Below are positions 42,204 to 51,523 of a stretch of DNA of 64,000 nt, in pieces. The DNA lies in contig SVSX01000002.1 of NCBI GenBank assembly GCA_015064085.1, positions 28,829-92,828 on the forward strand, read 5' to 3'. The position numbers and the translations under genes were made by a program. The number at the start of each line of letters is the position of its first letter. The stretch's first letter is position 1. This stretch comes from Oscillospiraceae bacterium (lineage in GTDB: Bacteria; Bacillota; Clostridia; Oscillospirales; CAG-272). Under the pieces are notes generated by a model. The model did not search any database. It saw only the letters and a program-made list of their open reading frames with translations, and had not been told where the DNA came from.

Positions 42204-42252
42204 GAAAAGATACTGCTCGAGGCTTAAGGGCTTCGGGCAGATCTTTTTTTGA
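42204..42252 (+). terminator. Terminator after rplS
   Basis: ctgctcgaggcttaagggcttcgggcagatcttttttt. Confidence 0.75.
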
Positions 42253-42403
42253 TTTGTACCGAAAAATTCTCTTCGGATAAAATTGAATAAATTTTCGGTA
42301 TTTATAAGCCTAAAAAAGAAAAAAAGAGGTTTACAACACCGAAAAAAACAATTATAATGTAGATGTACAGATATTGCTGTCTCTATTGAAAGGGGGAAAA
42401 GCT

Positions 42404-43294
42404 TTGAGGACCTACCTTCGGCACAGAATATGGAACGTGCTCGATATAAGAGAGCTTATCGCACTCGAGTATCTCGACTTTGAGGGGAAATACAAAAATT
42501 ACTCCGAGCAGCACGATTTCTGGGAGCTGTGCTACCTTTTTGACGGCGAAATAACCGTTTCTCTTGGCGATGAGAGTCGTGATCTGTCTGCGGGAGAGCT
42601 TTTGCTCATCGATCCCGACAGAAGACATTCCTACGATTCATCGAAGGGAAATCTTTCCTCTGCGTTCGTTGTCTGCTTTGAGAGCTCTTCACAGGCTCTT
42701 CGCGCGCTTGCGGGGAAAGTTTTTTCGCACAGCGATCTTGCCGCGGCTTGCATGAGGGATATCGTAGACGAGAGCGCAGGCACGTTCAAAATGAACGACG
42801 AAGAGCATCTTGAGGCACTATCCGAGCCTAATTTCGGAGGACAGCAGATCATAATGCTTCGACTCGAGCATTTGCTGATCGGACTTCTGCGCGACGTTTC
42901 GTCGCAAAAGAATTCTGAGGTGGTTTTTCTTAAGGATGAAAATTTCTATTCCGATCTTTCAAAAGCAATAATAAAGTTTTTTGAGGAGCATATCAGAGAG
43001 GAGCTCTCACTTGACGACGTTTGCAGAAAGATGAATTACTCGCGCTCTTTTCTCTGTAAGACCTTTAAGCATCATACCGGAGAGACGATCATGGGATGCT
43101 TTAACAGAATGAAGGTCGAGGAGGCAGCGAGACTGCTCAAGGAGACAGAGTGGAGCGTTTCCGATGTCGCGCATTGTCTCGGATATGGCGAGGCGAAGCA
43201 TTTTGGAGAGCTGTTTAAAAGATATATGGGAATGTCACCTGCAAAATACAGAAAAATGGGGGGAAAAGAATATGATATCAACCGTTTGCGGTGA
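42404..43294 (+). CDS. AraC-family transcriptional regulator of the PTE/M24/ASRT unit
   Basis: LSLDDVCRKMNYSRSFLCKTFKHHTGETIMGCFNRMKVEEAARLLKETEWSVSDVAHCLGYGEAKHFGELFKRYMGMSPAKYRK; TTG start with gaaaggggg SD. Confidence 0.88.
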   Translation: MRTYLRHRIWNVLDIRELIALEYLDFEGKYKNYSEQHDFWELCYLFDGEITVSLGDESRDLSAGELLLIDPDRRHSYDSSKGNLSSAFVVCFESSSQALRALAGKVFSHSDLAAACMRDIVDESAGTFKMNDEEHLEALSEPNFGGQQIIMLRLEHLLIGLLRDVSSQKNSEVVFLKDENFYSDLSKAIIKFFEEHIREELSLDDVCRKMNYSRSFLCKTFKHHTGETIMGCFNRMKVEEAARLLKETEWSVSDVAHCLGYGEAKHFGELFKRYMGMSPAKYRKMGGKEYDINRLR

Positions 43295-44279
43295 GATAAA
43301 CGCACGCGATATAGGGATCGCGTCATCGCACGAACATATTTTCATTGATATGAGAAATTGCGTGGAGCTAACGGGACACGAGCCGCCGATCTTTTACGAG
43401 GCATTGAATACCGAAAACCGCGCAGAGGTATTTTCAGATCCTTATGCCATACTTGATAATGCCTTGCTTGAGGGCGTAGACGATGCCGTCGATGAGGTCC
43501 TCGATTTCAAAAAATGGGGAGGGCAGACTATAGTGGATTGCACACCCGACGAGATAGGACGCGACCCGCTTCTTCTCAAGGAGGTATCTGAGAGGACGGG
43601 GGTAAACATCATCGTTGGCTGCGGACATTACTACCACAAGGCACACTATCCCTACGTAAAGGACGCGAGCGTAGATCAGCTTGCCGAGGAGATGAGGAGA
43701 GATATCCTCGTTGGTATCAGAGACACGGGAATAAAGGCAGGACTTATCGGAGAGATAGGTACAAGCGCTGTTATGAGCGAGGATGAAAAGAAGGTGCTCA
43801 GGGCGGCGGGTATCGTTGCGGCGGAGACCGGAAAGGCGGTTCACGTTCACACCGACCTTTATACCGAAAACGGATATGAGGTTATAGATATACTCACTTC
43901 CGAGGGAATGTCCTCGGAGAAGATATGCATTGACCATATAGACGTTTTGCTTCGTCCCGATTACGTCAAGGCTTTGCTTGACAGAGGCGTTTACGTCGAG
44001 TTTGACAATTTCGGCAAGGAATTTTACGTCTCCGCGGAGAGAAGATTTGCATACGACCTTGAGAGGATCGAGATGCTCAAGCAGCTCTTTGATCTCGGAT
44101 ACAAGAATAAAATACTTGTATGTAACGATATATGCCTTAAGACTATGTGGAGAAAATTCGGCGGACTCGGATATTCGCATATACTTCGCACGGTCAGAAA
44201 AATGGCAGCTGACGCGGGTATTTCCGATGAGGATTATATGGCGCTGCTTAGCGATAACGTGAGAAACTTTTTAATCTAA
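43272..44279 (+). CDS. Phosphotriesterase-family (Php-like) metal-dependent hydrolase
   Basis: SSHEHIFIDM, VDCTPDEIGRDPLLLKEVSERTGVNIIVGCGHYYH, GLIGEIGTS, AVHVHTDLY, ICIDHID, LVCNDI; overlaps araC by 23 bp. Confidence 0.9.
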   Translation: MISTVCGEINARDIGIASSHEHIFIDMRNCVELTGHEPPIFYEALNTENRAEVFSDPYAILDNALLEGVDDAVDEVLDFKKWGGQTIVDCTPDEIGRDPLLLKEVSERTGVNIIVGCGHYYHKAHYPYVKDASVDQLAEEMRRDILVGIRDTGIKAGLIGEIGTSAVMSEDEKKVLRAAGIVAAETGKAVHVHTDLYTENGYEVIDILTSEGMSSEKICIDHIDVLLRPDYVKALLDRGVYVEFDNFGKEFYVSAERRFAYDLERIEMLKQLFDLGYKNKILVCNDICLKTMWRKFGGLGYSHILRTVRKMAADAGISDEDYMALLSDNVRNFLI

Positions 44280-44299
44280 AAAATATAAGGAGAAAAACT

Positions 44300-45493
44300 A
44301 TGAATTATCCAAAGATTGAAGCTAACGAGTACCTTGTGAGAGTAAACGCTCTCAGAGAAAAAATGGCAGAGGCGGGAGTTGACCTTGTTGTCGGCTTCTC
44401 GAACCTGCTTGAGATAGCCATCGTGCGCTATTATTGCGGATTTGCTCCCGTAAATGAGAGCGCGGCTATCGTGATCCCCGCTGACGGTGAGGTCGTTGTC
44501 TGCAGCGGTCAGGCTTCCTACGACTACTGCCTCGTGCAGAACAAGCTTCCCGAAAGCCGCATCGCGATACTCCCCGAGATAGGAGAGGTCAGCGGATTTG
44601 AATACGACACAGAAGGTCAGCTTGACTTTGCAGAGCTTTTTGCAAGTATCAAGGCAGAGCATCCCAATGTCAAGAAGATAGGCTTTATCGGAAGACTTAT
44701 ATTCCCTGCGATCATTATGAATAAGCTCAAGCAGGTATTCTTTGACGCCGAGATAGTTGATTTTGATGACGTACATTACGAGCAGCGTATCCGCAAGAGT
44801 CCCGCCGAGATCGAGGTGCTTAAGACAAACTGGCAGATGGTATCCGAAATGTTTGAGAACGTTGTTCCGAGAATTGAGATCGGAATGACAGAGCGCTTTA
44901 TCGAGGGTATGTTTGAAGCCGAGATGATGAAGCTTGGCGCAGAGAGCTACGTTCAGGCATTTGCGCCGATGATAGCTACAGGTCCTGAAAATTCTTACAT
45001 CAGTATGTGCAGAAATACGCTCAGACAGATAGGTGAGAGCGAGATAATAAATATCGGTGCGGGCGTTTGCTACGAGGGCTATAACGGAATTATCTGCTCA
45101 CCGCTCGTGCTTGGCGAGATCCCCGATAAGATACGTGACGCCGTCAAGTGCGCTTACGATGCGCTGAATTACGCATCCGATAAGATGAAGGCGGGAACTC
45201 CTTGTGACGTCGTGCTTAATGCATACACCGATTATCTCACAAAATACGGATACATAGATTACTGTCCCTACGGAAGTCTTCACAGCACGGGTATGCTCGA
45301 GTGCGAAGCACCCACATTTACCGTTGGGAATAAGAGGATCATCGAAGAGGGTATGGCGATCTGTATCGACGCGTATTTCAAGGGTATGGAATGGGGCTCG
45401 TTCCGCATTGAGGACTGCTACCTCATAACGAAGGACGGCGCAAAGCGCATGACTACCTACAATGATAAGGCAATACCTAAGATATTTATGTGA
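44300..45493 (+). CDS. M24-family (aminopeptidase P/creatinase fold) protein with altered metal ligands
   Basis: Creatinase_N + M24 layout: RVNALREKMAEAGVDLVV...YEQRIRKSPAEIEVLKTNWQMVSEM...INIGAGVCYEGYNGIICSP...GSLHSTGMLECEAP...EEGMAICIDAYF...FRIEDCYLIT. Confidence 0.88.
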   Translation: MNYPKIEANEYLVRVNALREKMAEAGVDLVVGFSNLLEIAIVRYYCGFAPVNESAAIVIPADGEVVVCSGQASYDYCLVQNKLPESRIAILPEIGEVSGFEYDTEGQLDFAELFASIKAEHPNVKKIGFIGRLIFPAIIMNKLKQVFFDAEIVDFDDVHYEQRIRKSPAEIEVLKTNWQMVSEMFENVVPRIEIGMTERFIEGMFEAEMMKLGAESYVQAFAPMIATGPENSYISMCRNTLRQIGESEIINIGAGVCYEGYNGIICSPLVLGEIPDKIRDAVKCAYDALNYASDKMKAGTPCDVVLNAYTDYLTKYGYIDYCPYGSLHSTGMLECEAPTFTVGNKRIIEEGMAICIDAYFKGMEWGSFRIEDCYLITKDGAKRMTTYNDKAIPKIFM

Positions 45494-45501
45494 GGTGCGT
45501 G

Positions 45502-45870
45502 ATGGAGAAGGGAAAAAAGAATTGGGTCTTTTGTGACGGATATCTTCCTCCTCACGGAAACGATCCTGAGTTTGAGGGTCACGAGGCACTTATGCTGACA
45601 AATCTTAACACAGATAAGACCAAGATTGAGCTTGTCTTTGTTTTTGAGGACAGAGAGCCTGTCGGAGAGATATATGTTGAGCTTGACGGAATGAGAACGA
45701 CCTGCATCCGTCTTGATAAGCCACTCGGAGAAAAGAAATTTATGCTTGGAGAGGCAGTGCAGTATACTGTTTGGGTCAAGAGCGAGCTGCCTATATGCGC
45801 TTGCTTCGGTAGACTTGATGTAAGACAGACAAATATGGCGTACTACAGCGTAGAGGGATATTCCTTCTGA
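45502..45870 (+). CDS. Sensory rhodopsin transducer (ASRT) family small-molecule-binding protein
   Basis: GKKNWVFCDGYLPPHGNDPEFEGHEALMLTNLNTDKTKIELVFVFEDREPVGEIYVELDGMRTTCIRLDKPLG...RLDVRQTNMAYYSVEGYSF matches the remembered ASRT pattern (W.ia.GyiPp...H E...LN....A.v.i.....d.ePvg......aRrt...r......R.D.RQ). Confidence 0.88.
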   Translation: MEKGKKNWVFCDGYLPPHGNDPEFEGHEALMLTNLNTDKTKIELVFVFEDREPVGEIYVELDGMRTTCIRLDKPLGEKKFMLGEAVQYTVWVKSELPICACFGRLDVRQTNMAYYSVEGYSF

Positions 45871-45883
45871 TAAATACAAAAAT

Positions 45884-45982
45884 GGGCTGTCGCATTTAGC
45901 GCAGAACAAAAATACACTAAAAAATGATAAGCGAAAAACCGCTCTCACCGTCAAAAATGCGACGGCGGGGCGGTTTTTTGAT
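45884..45982 (+). terminator. Long hairpin element / terminator
   Basis: GCTGTCGCATTT (45886-45897) pairs with AAATGCGACGGC (45955-45966), followed by gcggttttttg. Confidence 0.6.
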
Positions 45983-48496: not shown

Positions 48497-51400
48497 ATGA
48501 ATAACCCGCAAAATATAGAAGATATTCTGAAGCTTCTCAAAAGCTCCTACAACGATGAGGAAAAGGCTGAGGAGAAAGCCCCGAGCGTCAGGCGCTCGAG
48601 TGGAAAGATGACGAACGAGGAGCTTCAGAACAAGCTCAGGGCGCAGTTTCTTTCGGACGGCGAGGTTCAGGGTGAGAGCGACCTTGAGAGTGAGGACAGC
48701 TATACCCTTGACGAGGATTTCCTTTCCGATGCCGCTGTTGATTCGGAGGAAAAGGAGACCGAAACGCCTGAGGCAGAGCCTGTAACGGAAGCTGCCGAGG
48801 ATATTGATGAGGACGACGGAATACCGCCTTTTGATATAGTAGACGAGGACGAGCCCACCGAGGAGGAGATCACCGAGGAAGAGATCACCGAGGAGGAGAT
48901 CATCGAGGAAGAGGTCGCCGAGGAAGAGATCACCGAGGAGGAGATCCCCGAGGACGAGCCCACCGAGGAGGAGATCACCGAGGAAGAGATCACCGAGGAG
49001 GAGATCATCGAGGAAGAGGTCGCCGAGGAAGAGATCACCGAGGAGGAGATCATCGAGGAAGAAATCGCCGAGGACGAGGTCGTCGAGGACGAGCCCACCG
49101 AGGAAGAGATCGTCGAGGAAGAGATCGTCGAGGAAGAGATCACCGAGGAAGAGATCCCCGAGGAAGAGATCCCCGAGGAAGAGATCACCGAGGAAGAGAT
49201 CGCCGAGGAGGAGATCACCGAGGAAGAGCCCGCCGAAGGGGATACCATCGACATTACAGACGAAGAGGAGGCTCTCTTTGACGTGCTTGGTGAGGATAGC
49301 GATATTGACGACGGTATCTTCATCGAAAACGAGGAGGGTGAGCTTGTCTTCGCAAAGCTTTCTGAGAACGACAAGGCTAAGGTGGAGATACGCGGAGAGC
49401 AGACCGAAAAGAGAACACCGCCCCTCGAGCTTTACAGCAGAGACAGCGGACAGCTTGCTCTCTTTGAAAAGGAGGAAACCGAAGAGCCCGAGCCCGCGGA
49501 GACCGAGGCGGAGGTTTCATCGGAAAGCGACGATAGCCAGATCATAATGGATTTTGGCGACAGCGACGAGAAAATACACACCCCCGAGCTTTCCGATAAT
49601 ATAAACGAGATCGACGATTCTGTGCTCAATCTTATGTACGAGTTCGGAGACAAGAGCTTTGCCGAGAGGATCGCGGCTGACCCCGAGACCGAGGAGCGGC
49701 TGATCGGTGCGGTGAAGGAGAGGGAGAATCGCGAAGAGAAGATAGAGTCGGAGGAGGCGTTTGCCTTCAACGGCAGAGAATACGAGGAGGAAGAGCAGAA
49801 GGACGACGTTTTCGATGCCTATATGCGAGAGAAGAAATTCCTTTTGCTGCGTCTTCTCGGCTGTGGCGCTTTCGCGGCGGCGCTTGTAATATACGAGCTT
49901 CTCGCAAGGCTTGGCGTTGAGCTCAGGGGAATATTCAGCTATCTGGACTACCCCACCGCCTTTATACTGATAGGCGTTCAGCTGCTTATCTTTTCGGTAG
50001 CCTTTGCCTGGAGAGAGCTTTTCTCGGGAATGAAAAAGGCGTTTACCTTCAGGGCGACCAGGTGGTCGAGCCTTGCGCTTGTGGTATTTTTCTCGGTTGT
50101 ACACAGCGTTGTGCTGTCTATAGCCGCTCCCGAAAGTCTTAACTATCTTTTTGGCGGAATAGCGGCAATTTACGTCTTTATCGGTCTGCTTTGCGAATAC
50201 CTTGAGCTTTCAAGAGAGATAAAGACCTTTTCGGTATATTCGGCGGAGGGAAGCAAGTTTACCTTCTATACCGACGCCGCCCCCGGTTCGTCAGCCGATA
50301 TGATGTACCGCGGCGGAGTGCCGAACACAAAGAAGATCTATTCTCCTATGGAGATAAGCTTCCCCAACGGATATTTCTCGGCGGTCAACCGCGCTGAGAA
50401 CAAGGATATTCTGGTCAACTATTCTATAACCACTGTGGTGGTGCTCAGCACTATCGCCTTCGTTATAGCCGCGCTGCTCGGAAATTCCGCCGACGTCGCA
50501 CTTGCCGTCTTTATGCTGACTATGGCGGTCATATCCCCCATATCATCCTTTGCCCTTCACACAATGCCGATCTGCATGACCTCCTCGAGGCTCTATCAGA
50601 GGGATTGCGCTGTGGCGGGAGAGGTTATGGCGAAGAAATACGCTGAGTGCGACTATATAGTCTTCAGCGACAGACATCTTTTTGCCGCCGCTGAGGCGAG
50701 AGATAACGGTATCGTGGTTTATGACGAGCGCAATACAAAGCGTGTTATCGAATACCTCTCGGCGCTTTACGGGGAGATCGGCGGTCCTATGAGAGGAGTT
50801 TTCGGCGAGTGCAGGGAAAAGCACGTTGTGAAGCTCAGAAGGATCGCGAGAAACGGTGTTGAGGCGGTTATCGACAATGCTCACAGTCTTATACTCGGCG
50901 ACGCTGAGTTTGCAAAGAGATACGGCATCAGCTTCCCGGGAGGAGCAGAGGGCGACGGTATTATAGGCTTTGCAATTGACGGACGCCATTCCGCAAAGCT
51001 CTGCCTCAAATACAAGACCGAGCCCCTCTTTGAGATGCTTGCGGGAAAGCTTGCCGAAAACGGTATAAGCTGCGTTATCGAGACCTATGACCCCGTTATC
51101 AACAGCAGCTTCGTAGCTGCTTGCAGGAAAAATAACGACGATCCCATAAACGTCGTACATAAAAACGTTATGGACTTTTACAGAAAGACACAGTACAGAT
51201 CCCTCGAGAAAACCGGCATTGTGGTATCCGCCTCGAGATTTAAACTCGTTGAGGCTGTTATATGGTGTAAGCGCCTCTGCCCGATCTTCAAGCGCGGCAG
51301 TGTGATACAGCTTGTGCTTTACTGCGTATCCTTCGCGGCAATAATGGCACTGACGGTTCTCGGCTTGATACCTATGCTCAATCAATACGCGGCGCTCGTC

Positions 51401-51523
51401 TTCCAGCTTCTTTGCTTCCTGCCGATACCGCTGCTTATGAGAGGTCTTCCCAAAAAGGATTACTTCTCCTTCGACGAGGGTGAGGACAATAAAAATAATA
51501 ACGAAACAGAGACAAGAGAATGA
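48497..51523 (+). CDS. Large membrane protein: Glu-rich repetitive N-terminus + degenerate P-type-ATPase-like C-terminal half
   Basis: (EEEIT)n repeats; TM pairs; HTMPICMTSS...DYIVFSDRHLF; RNGVEAVIDNAHSLILGDAEF; GFAIDGRHSAKLCLKYKTEPLFEMLAGKLAENGISCVIETYDP. Confidence 0.85.
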   Translation: MNNPQNIEDILKLLKSSYNDEEKAEEKAPSVRRSSGKMTNEELQNKLRAQFLSDGEVQGESDLESEDSYTLDEDFLSDAAVDSEEKETETPEAEPVTEAAEDIDEDDGIPPFDIVDEDEPTEEEITEEEITEEEIIEEEVAEEEITEEEIPEDEPTEEEITEEEITEEEIIEEEVAEEEITEEEIIEEEIAEDEVVEDEPTEEEIVEEEIVEEEITEEEIPEEEIPEEEITEEEIAEEEITEEEPAEGDTIDITDEEEALFDVLGEDSDIDDGIFIENEEGELVFAKLSENDKAKVEIRGEQTEKRTPPLELYSRDSGQLALFEKEETEEPEPAETEAEVSSESDDSQIIMDFGDSDEKIHTPELSDNINEIDDSVLNLMYEFGDKSFAERIAADPETEERLIGAVKERENREEKIESEEAFAFNGREYEEEEQKDDVFDAYMREKKFLLLRLLGCGAFAAALVIYELLARLGVELRGIFSYLDYPTAFILIGVQLLIFSVAFAWRELFSGMKKAFTFRATRWSSLALVVFFSVVHSVVLSIAAPESLNYLFGGIAAIYVFIGLLCEYLELSREIKTFSVYSAEGSKFTFYTDAAPGSSADMMYRGGVPNTKKIYSPMEISFPNGYFSAVNRAENKDILVNYSITTVVVLSTIAFVIAALLGNSADVALAVFMLTMAVISPISSFALHTMPICMTSSRLYQRDCAVAGEVMAKKYAECDYIVFSDRHLFAAAEARDNGIVVYDERNTKRVIEYLSALYGEIGGPMRGVFGECREKHVVKLRRIARNGVEAVIDNAHSLILGDAEFAKRYGISFPGGAEGDGIIGFAIDGRHSAKLCLKYKTEPLFEMLAGKLAENGISCVIETYDPVINSSFVAACRKNNDDPINVVHKNVMDFYRKTQYRSLEKTGIVVSASRFKLVEAVIWCKRLCPIFKRGSVIQLVLYCVSFAAIMALTVLGLIPMLNQYAALVFQLLCFLPIPLLMRGLPKKDYFSFDEGEDNKNNNETETRE
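48848..49245 (+). repeat. 15-bp-unit coding tandem repeat (EEEI[TIPAV]) with an embedded 105-bp higher-order repeat
   Basis: gaggargagatcacc-type units; gacgagcccaccgag at 48848 recurs at 48953 with nearly identical following sequence. Confidence 0.93.

Follow-up and report, generated by a model that had tools for sequence, protein, structure and literature searches.

An M24-fold protein lacking its family's metal site is paired with an ASRT-domain protein in putative sugar-related operons of Clostridia

In the 64,000-nucleotide stretch of an Oscillospiraceae contig that was analysed here (hereafter the window), a predicted four-gene operon ends with a gene of the Anabaena sensory rhodopsin transducer (ASRT) family, and comparative sequence data indicate that the conserved core of this and related operons is the pair formed by the ASRT gene and the M24-fold gene directly before it. 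With moderate confidence, we propose that the four genes serve the breakdown of a sugar-derived compound under the control of AraC, and that ASRT would bind the ligand as a dedicated partner of the M24 protein, which would work without metal.

The four genes are all on the forward strand. The araC gene (42404..43294, TTG start) encodes an AraC-family regulator with an N-terminal cupin-type sensor (PF12833, HTH_18, 1e-19; PF02311, 2e-7) and overlaps by 23 bp the gene of a phosphotriesterase-family (PTE) metallohydrolase (43272..44279; PF02126, 2e-58), the AraC stop lying at 43292-43294 and the PTE ATG at 43272. After a gap of 20 bp comes M24 (44300..45493; PF00557, 1e-29; Creatinase_N PF01321, 9e-10), a pita-bread-fold protein without the metal site of its family, and 8 bp separate its stop from the ATG of ASRT (45502..45870; PF07100, 6e-24), which encodes an ASRT/ASRAH-domain protein of 122 aa. 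The left border is the rplS intrinsic terminator (42213..42240, forward strand, 12-bp stem and T run), with a folding energy of -25.3 kcal/mol and z of -5.6 for 42205-42260; the right border is a terminator-like hairpin (45932..45980, forward strand, T run in the 3' arm) of -28.7 kcal/mol and z -5.7. An earlier note on this DNA had described the same coordinates, same-strand packing and coupled junctions between these two structures; this description holds, and both borders are stable in folding. A sigma-70-type promoter (TTTACA-17-TATAAT, 42330..42358, forward strand) is predicted from its consensus match alone, with 11 of 12 consensus positions and the top score of the region, about 45 bp 5' of the AraC start. 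The AraC-PTE-M24-ASRT genes are accordingly drawn here as a predicted single transcription unit, from promoter to terminator, and transporter and glycosidase genes are absent among the four. Elsewhere in the window, a 1008-aa ORF (48497-51523) has long acidic TEEEI/AEEEI-type repeats in its N-terminal third, followed by membrane-like segments.

The identity of the last gene, suggested before from the letters alone, was confirmed with the PF07100 profile, which it matches with 84.8 bits (cut-off 25) over profile positions 2-118 of 119 (Pfam). The closest solved structures are 2ii7 from Anabaena (3e-13) and 1nc7, Thermotoga TM1070 (3e-12). A Trp opening strand 1 and an Asn closing strand 2 are ASRT/ASRAH hallmarks in the study by De Souza and colleagues (2009, PMC2739507), who predicted ASRT to be a sugar binder; the earlier note had correctly linked the gene to this proposal of a sugar-like binding superfamily. 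The two hallmark residues are W8 and N34 in the window protein and are kept across groups, and His31-Glu32 (126-aa frame; His27-Glu28 of the 122-aa protein) is present in nearly all sequences. The pocket signature SHEshChhN reads GHEALMLTN, where His, Glu and Asn are kept, Ser is replaced by Gly and Cys by Met. Compared with the TM1070 type, the window's subfamily has Met/Ile for the pocket Cys, Cys for His72 and Gly for Ser30. Because the pocket residues are partly kept and partly replaced, the ligand of the M24-linked ASRT is likely related to that of the other subfamily, yet different from it.

The solo ASRT/ASRAH genes of sugar operons described in the 2009 paper, such as TM1070, share with the window gene a single PF07100 domain, the kept Trp, His and Asn, a catabolic operon and the lack of a nearby rhodopsin; the window ASRT differs from them in belonging to a subfamily of its own and in having M24 as a partner. 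The main text of that paper mentions neither peptidase, M24, creatinase nor phosphotriesterase, and an ASRT-M24 link was not found in the mostly open-access literature searched. In Sinorhizobium and Nitrobacter, plasmid-borne ASRT genes are flanked by genes resembling those listed in 2009, with M24 absent. Microbial rhodopsin (PF01036) was found in neither the host genome nor nine related genomes, a weak test since no control genome matched. Two 518-549 aa proteins (L133:229-1785, forward strand; L134:1477-3126, reverse strand), with a metallo-beta-lactamase fold by eye, carry a C-terminal stretch that weakly matches the ASRT profile (E 1.8e-6 and 5e-4); they are possibly a new ASRAH domain architecture, of which contig 9 of genome G289 may hold a third case. 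An ASRT frame with four internal stops (genome G010, contig 86, 17998-18321) is apparently a decayed copy.

A survey of 391 genomes of the class, in which the genes of the loci were called as mechanical ORFs, divides ASRT into two subfamilies. For the lower-scoring one, to which the window protein belongs, a same-strand M24 gene is at most two genes away in 40 of the 46 assessable loci, three more having been left out for contig ends or breaks, while for the other subfamily this was the case in none of the 30 best-scoring loci (both counted by hand). The M24-linked ASRT also parts from other ASRT in the tree at 100/99 support. The host genome itself has three ASRT genes, each adjoining one of its four M24 genes; three such adjacencies by chance would have a P near 1e-7, a rough estimate that assumes about 1900 genes. 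One of these pairs (L074), at the end of contig C69, faces a gene with sialidase-type Asp-box repeats, as judged by eye. Over 68 loci, the ASRT alignment begins at a median of 12 nt after the M24 stop. The surveys cover Clostridia best, and 300 genomes of the wider phylum added a single M24-type locus (L155). Within the genus ASRT is sparse, with hits in five of 29 further genomes, two of the five being weak and of another architecture.

Exceptions occur on both sides. Some loci with ASRT of the window's subfamily have no M24 (L075, L077, L078, L079, L103 and L114), and some M24 relatives have no ASRT directly 3' (L007, L014, L021, L022, L031, L034, L035 and L039). Three of the former (L078, L079 and L103) have an ASRT of the M24-linked type together with PTE and an Amidohydro_2 pair or an SftI/AraA-like isomerase, and could reveal what ASRT does without M24. 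In L018 and L082 a window-type M24 is paired with a divergent ASRT; the pair can therefore be re-sorted.

Relatives of the window's M24 were found at 39 loci, mostly from MAGs titled goat, sheep, deer or buffalo gut or rumen. By hand count, ASRT is directly 3' of M24 in 27 of the 37 assessable loci, PTE is nearby in 24 of the 39, and in 17 a same-strand AraC gene, 47-55% identical to that of the window, is found upstream; all four genes are present in 13. The conserved neighbourhood that had been expected is thus found, both for the pair and, less widely, for the whole operon. Neither rplS nor the other window neighbours were found at the related loci, which marks the operon as a cassette at differing genomic places.

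The third enzyme varies. The M24-ASRT module is accompanied by PTE, by a creatininase-family protein or by M81/MlrC, three unrelated metallohydrolases, and the M24 tree separates by partner into a creatininase-linked clade (100/100), the window's PTE-linked clade (100/99) and an M81-linked clade (100/100), mutually only 23-25% identical. Of the stray PTE-labelled rows, L030 is a locus with two modules, and L028 and L080 are long branches; the order and root of the clades were not used because the branches between them are very long and L075 is an outlier. The earlier note had treated all four genes as one operon with PTE as a fixed member; what is conserved, however, is M24 with ASRT, and PTE is one of three hydrolases that can take the third place. 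Within the clades, M24 and ASRT distances correlate (r of 0.66, 0.93 and 0.95, values reached by no more than 6 of 2000 permutations). These data bear on the possibility that we are dealing with ordinary co-located genes of a sugar island, where PTE, as a lactonase or an amidase, works separately from M24, ASRT is a regulator with a loose link to them, and M24 and ASRT form no unit. Joint inheritance of one operon is sufficient to give the correlated distances, and PTE, AraC and M24 are each found apart too; however, the M24-ASRT gap is tight across all three divergent clades while the third enzyme changes, and we consider this explanation unlikely.

The genes around the module in relatives are largely concerned with carbohydrates. 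Next to the creatininase flavour we found DUF4432 in five loci and GH3 in two, as well as GH1, PL8, GH78, GH127, SASA, sugar-binding proteins, LacI and AP_endonuc_2; next to the PTE and M81 flavours, AP_endonuc_2 in four, solute-binding proteins (SBP_bac_1), LacI, ROK, GH3, GHL6, two Amidohydro_2 genes and an SftI/AraA-related isomerase (7e-28, below its cut-off). Since carbohydrate genes surround the module, we infer a sugar-derived substrate. Two further families recur. One of about 260 aa (L038:6186-6965, also L004, L009, L015, L023 and others) often lies between AraC and PTE; its sequence matches nothing in Pfam or the PDB, and its predicted structure is a TIM barrel (pLDDT 93), whose glycoside-hydrolase-like fold matches are too weak and mixed to serve as a substrate clue. 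Another of about 680 aa (L008:9744-11807 and nine relatives) adjoins the PTE-type module and matches no Pfam family at 1e-3; GHL6 appears as a weak match in one of seven members, and its ubiquitin matches are short and due to chance.

The AlphaFold2 model of M24 is a confident pita-bread fold (pLDDT 93), and a Creatinase_N domain is present. With Foldseek, prolidases are the top matches by E-value; the TM is 0.83 in both directions with EutD (6twk) and about 0.80 with creatinase. A viral fold search gave no useful match. Aligned with EutD and the host genome's own prolidase, the columns of the metal ligands D, D, H, E and E read G253, I264, H328, D357 and E371, so that the five-ligand pattern of prolidases is broken, and the columns of His79 and His178 of MetAP hold M236 and C335. 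The loss extends to the other clades, with A/N/G and I/S/A/T at the metal Asp columns and M/I/V and C/V/A at the auxiliary His columns, while the prolidase of the host, used as a control, retains every one of these residues. H328, R369 and E371 are invariant, and D357 is found in nearly all sequences. The description of M24 as creatinase-like is valid for the fold alone, since both the metal Asp pair and the EutD/creatinase-type His are missing.

Comparison with EutD/DoeA and EutE/DoeB (ectoine hydrolase and deacetylase) is instructive: this system shares the M24 fold, an M24 gene beside a metallohydrolase gene and a small-molecule substrate, but has no ASRT, and its hydrolase families differ from those of the window's module. 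EutD keeps its His79-type residue (His232) and has no equivalents of His328 and Glu371, the reverse of the window's M24, which therefore represents a distinct pattern and adds to creatinase and EutD a further way in which an M24-fold protein has lost the metal site.

Loss of the metal ligands is what one would expect if M24 were a non-catalytic scaffold that forms with ASRT a ligand-sensing transcriptional co-regulator, and Anabaena ASRT is a reported DNA binder that loops DNA and affects a reporter (PMC8660804). The conserved pocket residues nevertheless exceed the needs of a mere scaffold, the operon already has a regulator in AraC, and of the residues reported to contact DNA, Arg and Gln agree with the family motif, as judged by eye, but Asn is unaligned; such a role seems to us quite improbable. 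Degradation of guanidino or creatinine-type compounds, in which PTE or the creatininase would open a ring before a creatinase-like M24 acts, is formally mirrored by the creatininase-family gene with M24 in about 20 loci. The creatinases 1chm, 1kp0 and 7yto do resemble M24 in fold and length, but are distant in sequence (with a profile E of 4e-20 they rank behind many prolidases), and M24 has another residue at the position of their catalytic His; creatinase catalysis presumably uses the His that the window's M24 has replaced, and the same column holds M/I/V in the other clades. The creatininase relatives reach only 54-67 bits, where the curated model of true creatininase has its cut-off at 235, and a role of the IolN inositol type was likewise discarded for them (50-57 bits against 245, a distant relation at most). 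With carbohydrate genes as neighbours, the guanidino compounds that the earlier note had listed are very unlikely substrates, and we reject this pathway. Peptide catabolism by an Xaa-Pro-type peptidase, for which prolidases as the top matches in sequence and fold could be cited, can hardly be reconciled with the loss, in all three clades, of the Asp pair of the metal site and of the two auxiliary His, and with the change of one Glu to Asp, when the host's prolidase keeps them all.

PTE, by contrast with M24, has an intact two-metal site: the family's HxH, bridging Lys/Glu, two His and Asp are present as H20, H22, E161, H193, H222 and D286, each kept in at least 94% of 34 relatives. The nearest PDB entry is 3rhg (Pmi1525, 3e-49), and the window's PTE matches cog1735 members (3rhg, the PTE-related protein 9efa, phospho-furanose lactonases) over its full length with all six ligand positions; its scores with the models of named activities, organophosphate hydrolase and phospho-furanose lactonase, are 92.5 and 60 bits and stay below the curated cut-offs of 500 and 630.

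In the AraC-controlled catabolic operon that we favour, AraC would sense the sugar-derived compound and PTE would hydrolyse a lactone-, ester- or amide-type bond. M24 would need no metal and would act on this compound or on what is formed from it, or else present the compound, and an ASRT tetramer would bind the compound and gate or support M24, as a binder or allosteric subunit. The reactions of PTE and M24 and a physical M24-ASRT complex are inferred. The support by ASRT is proposed by analogy with EutD, an M24-fold ring hydrolase that needs its neighbour EutE, which is thought to aid product release (PMC8739950). More tentatively, the pair could be a two-protein catalyst for sugars or sugar acids, in which an acid/base pocket of His328, Asp357 and Glu371 replaces the metal and ASRT is an obligate ligand-binding subunit.

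In herbivore-gut Clostridia, genes of this kind are probably misdescribed by the annotations Xaa-Pro peptidase, creatininase and phosphotriesterase, and the M24-ASRT operons point to a sugar-handling unit unrelated to light. If true, the two-protein catalyst would be the first defined cellular job of ASRT in rhodopsin-free bacteria.
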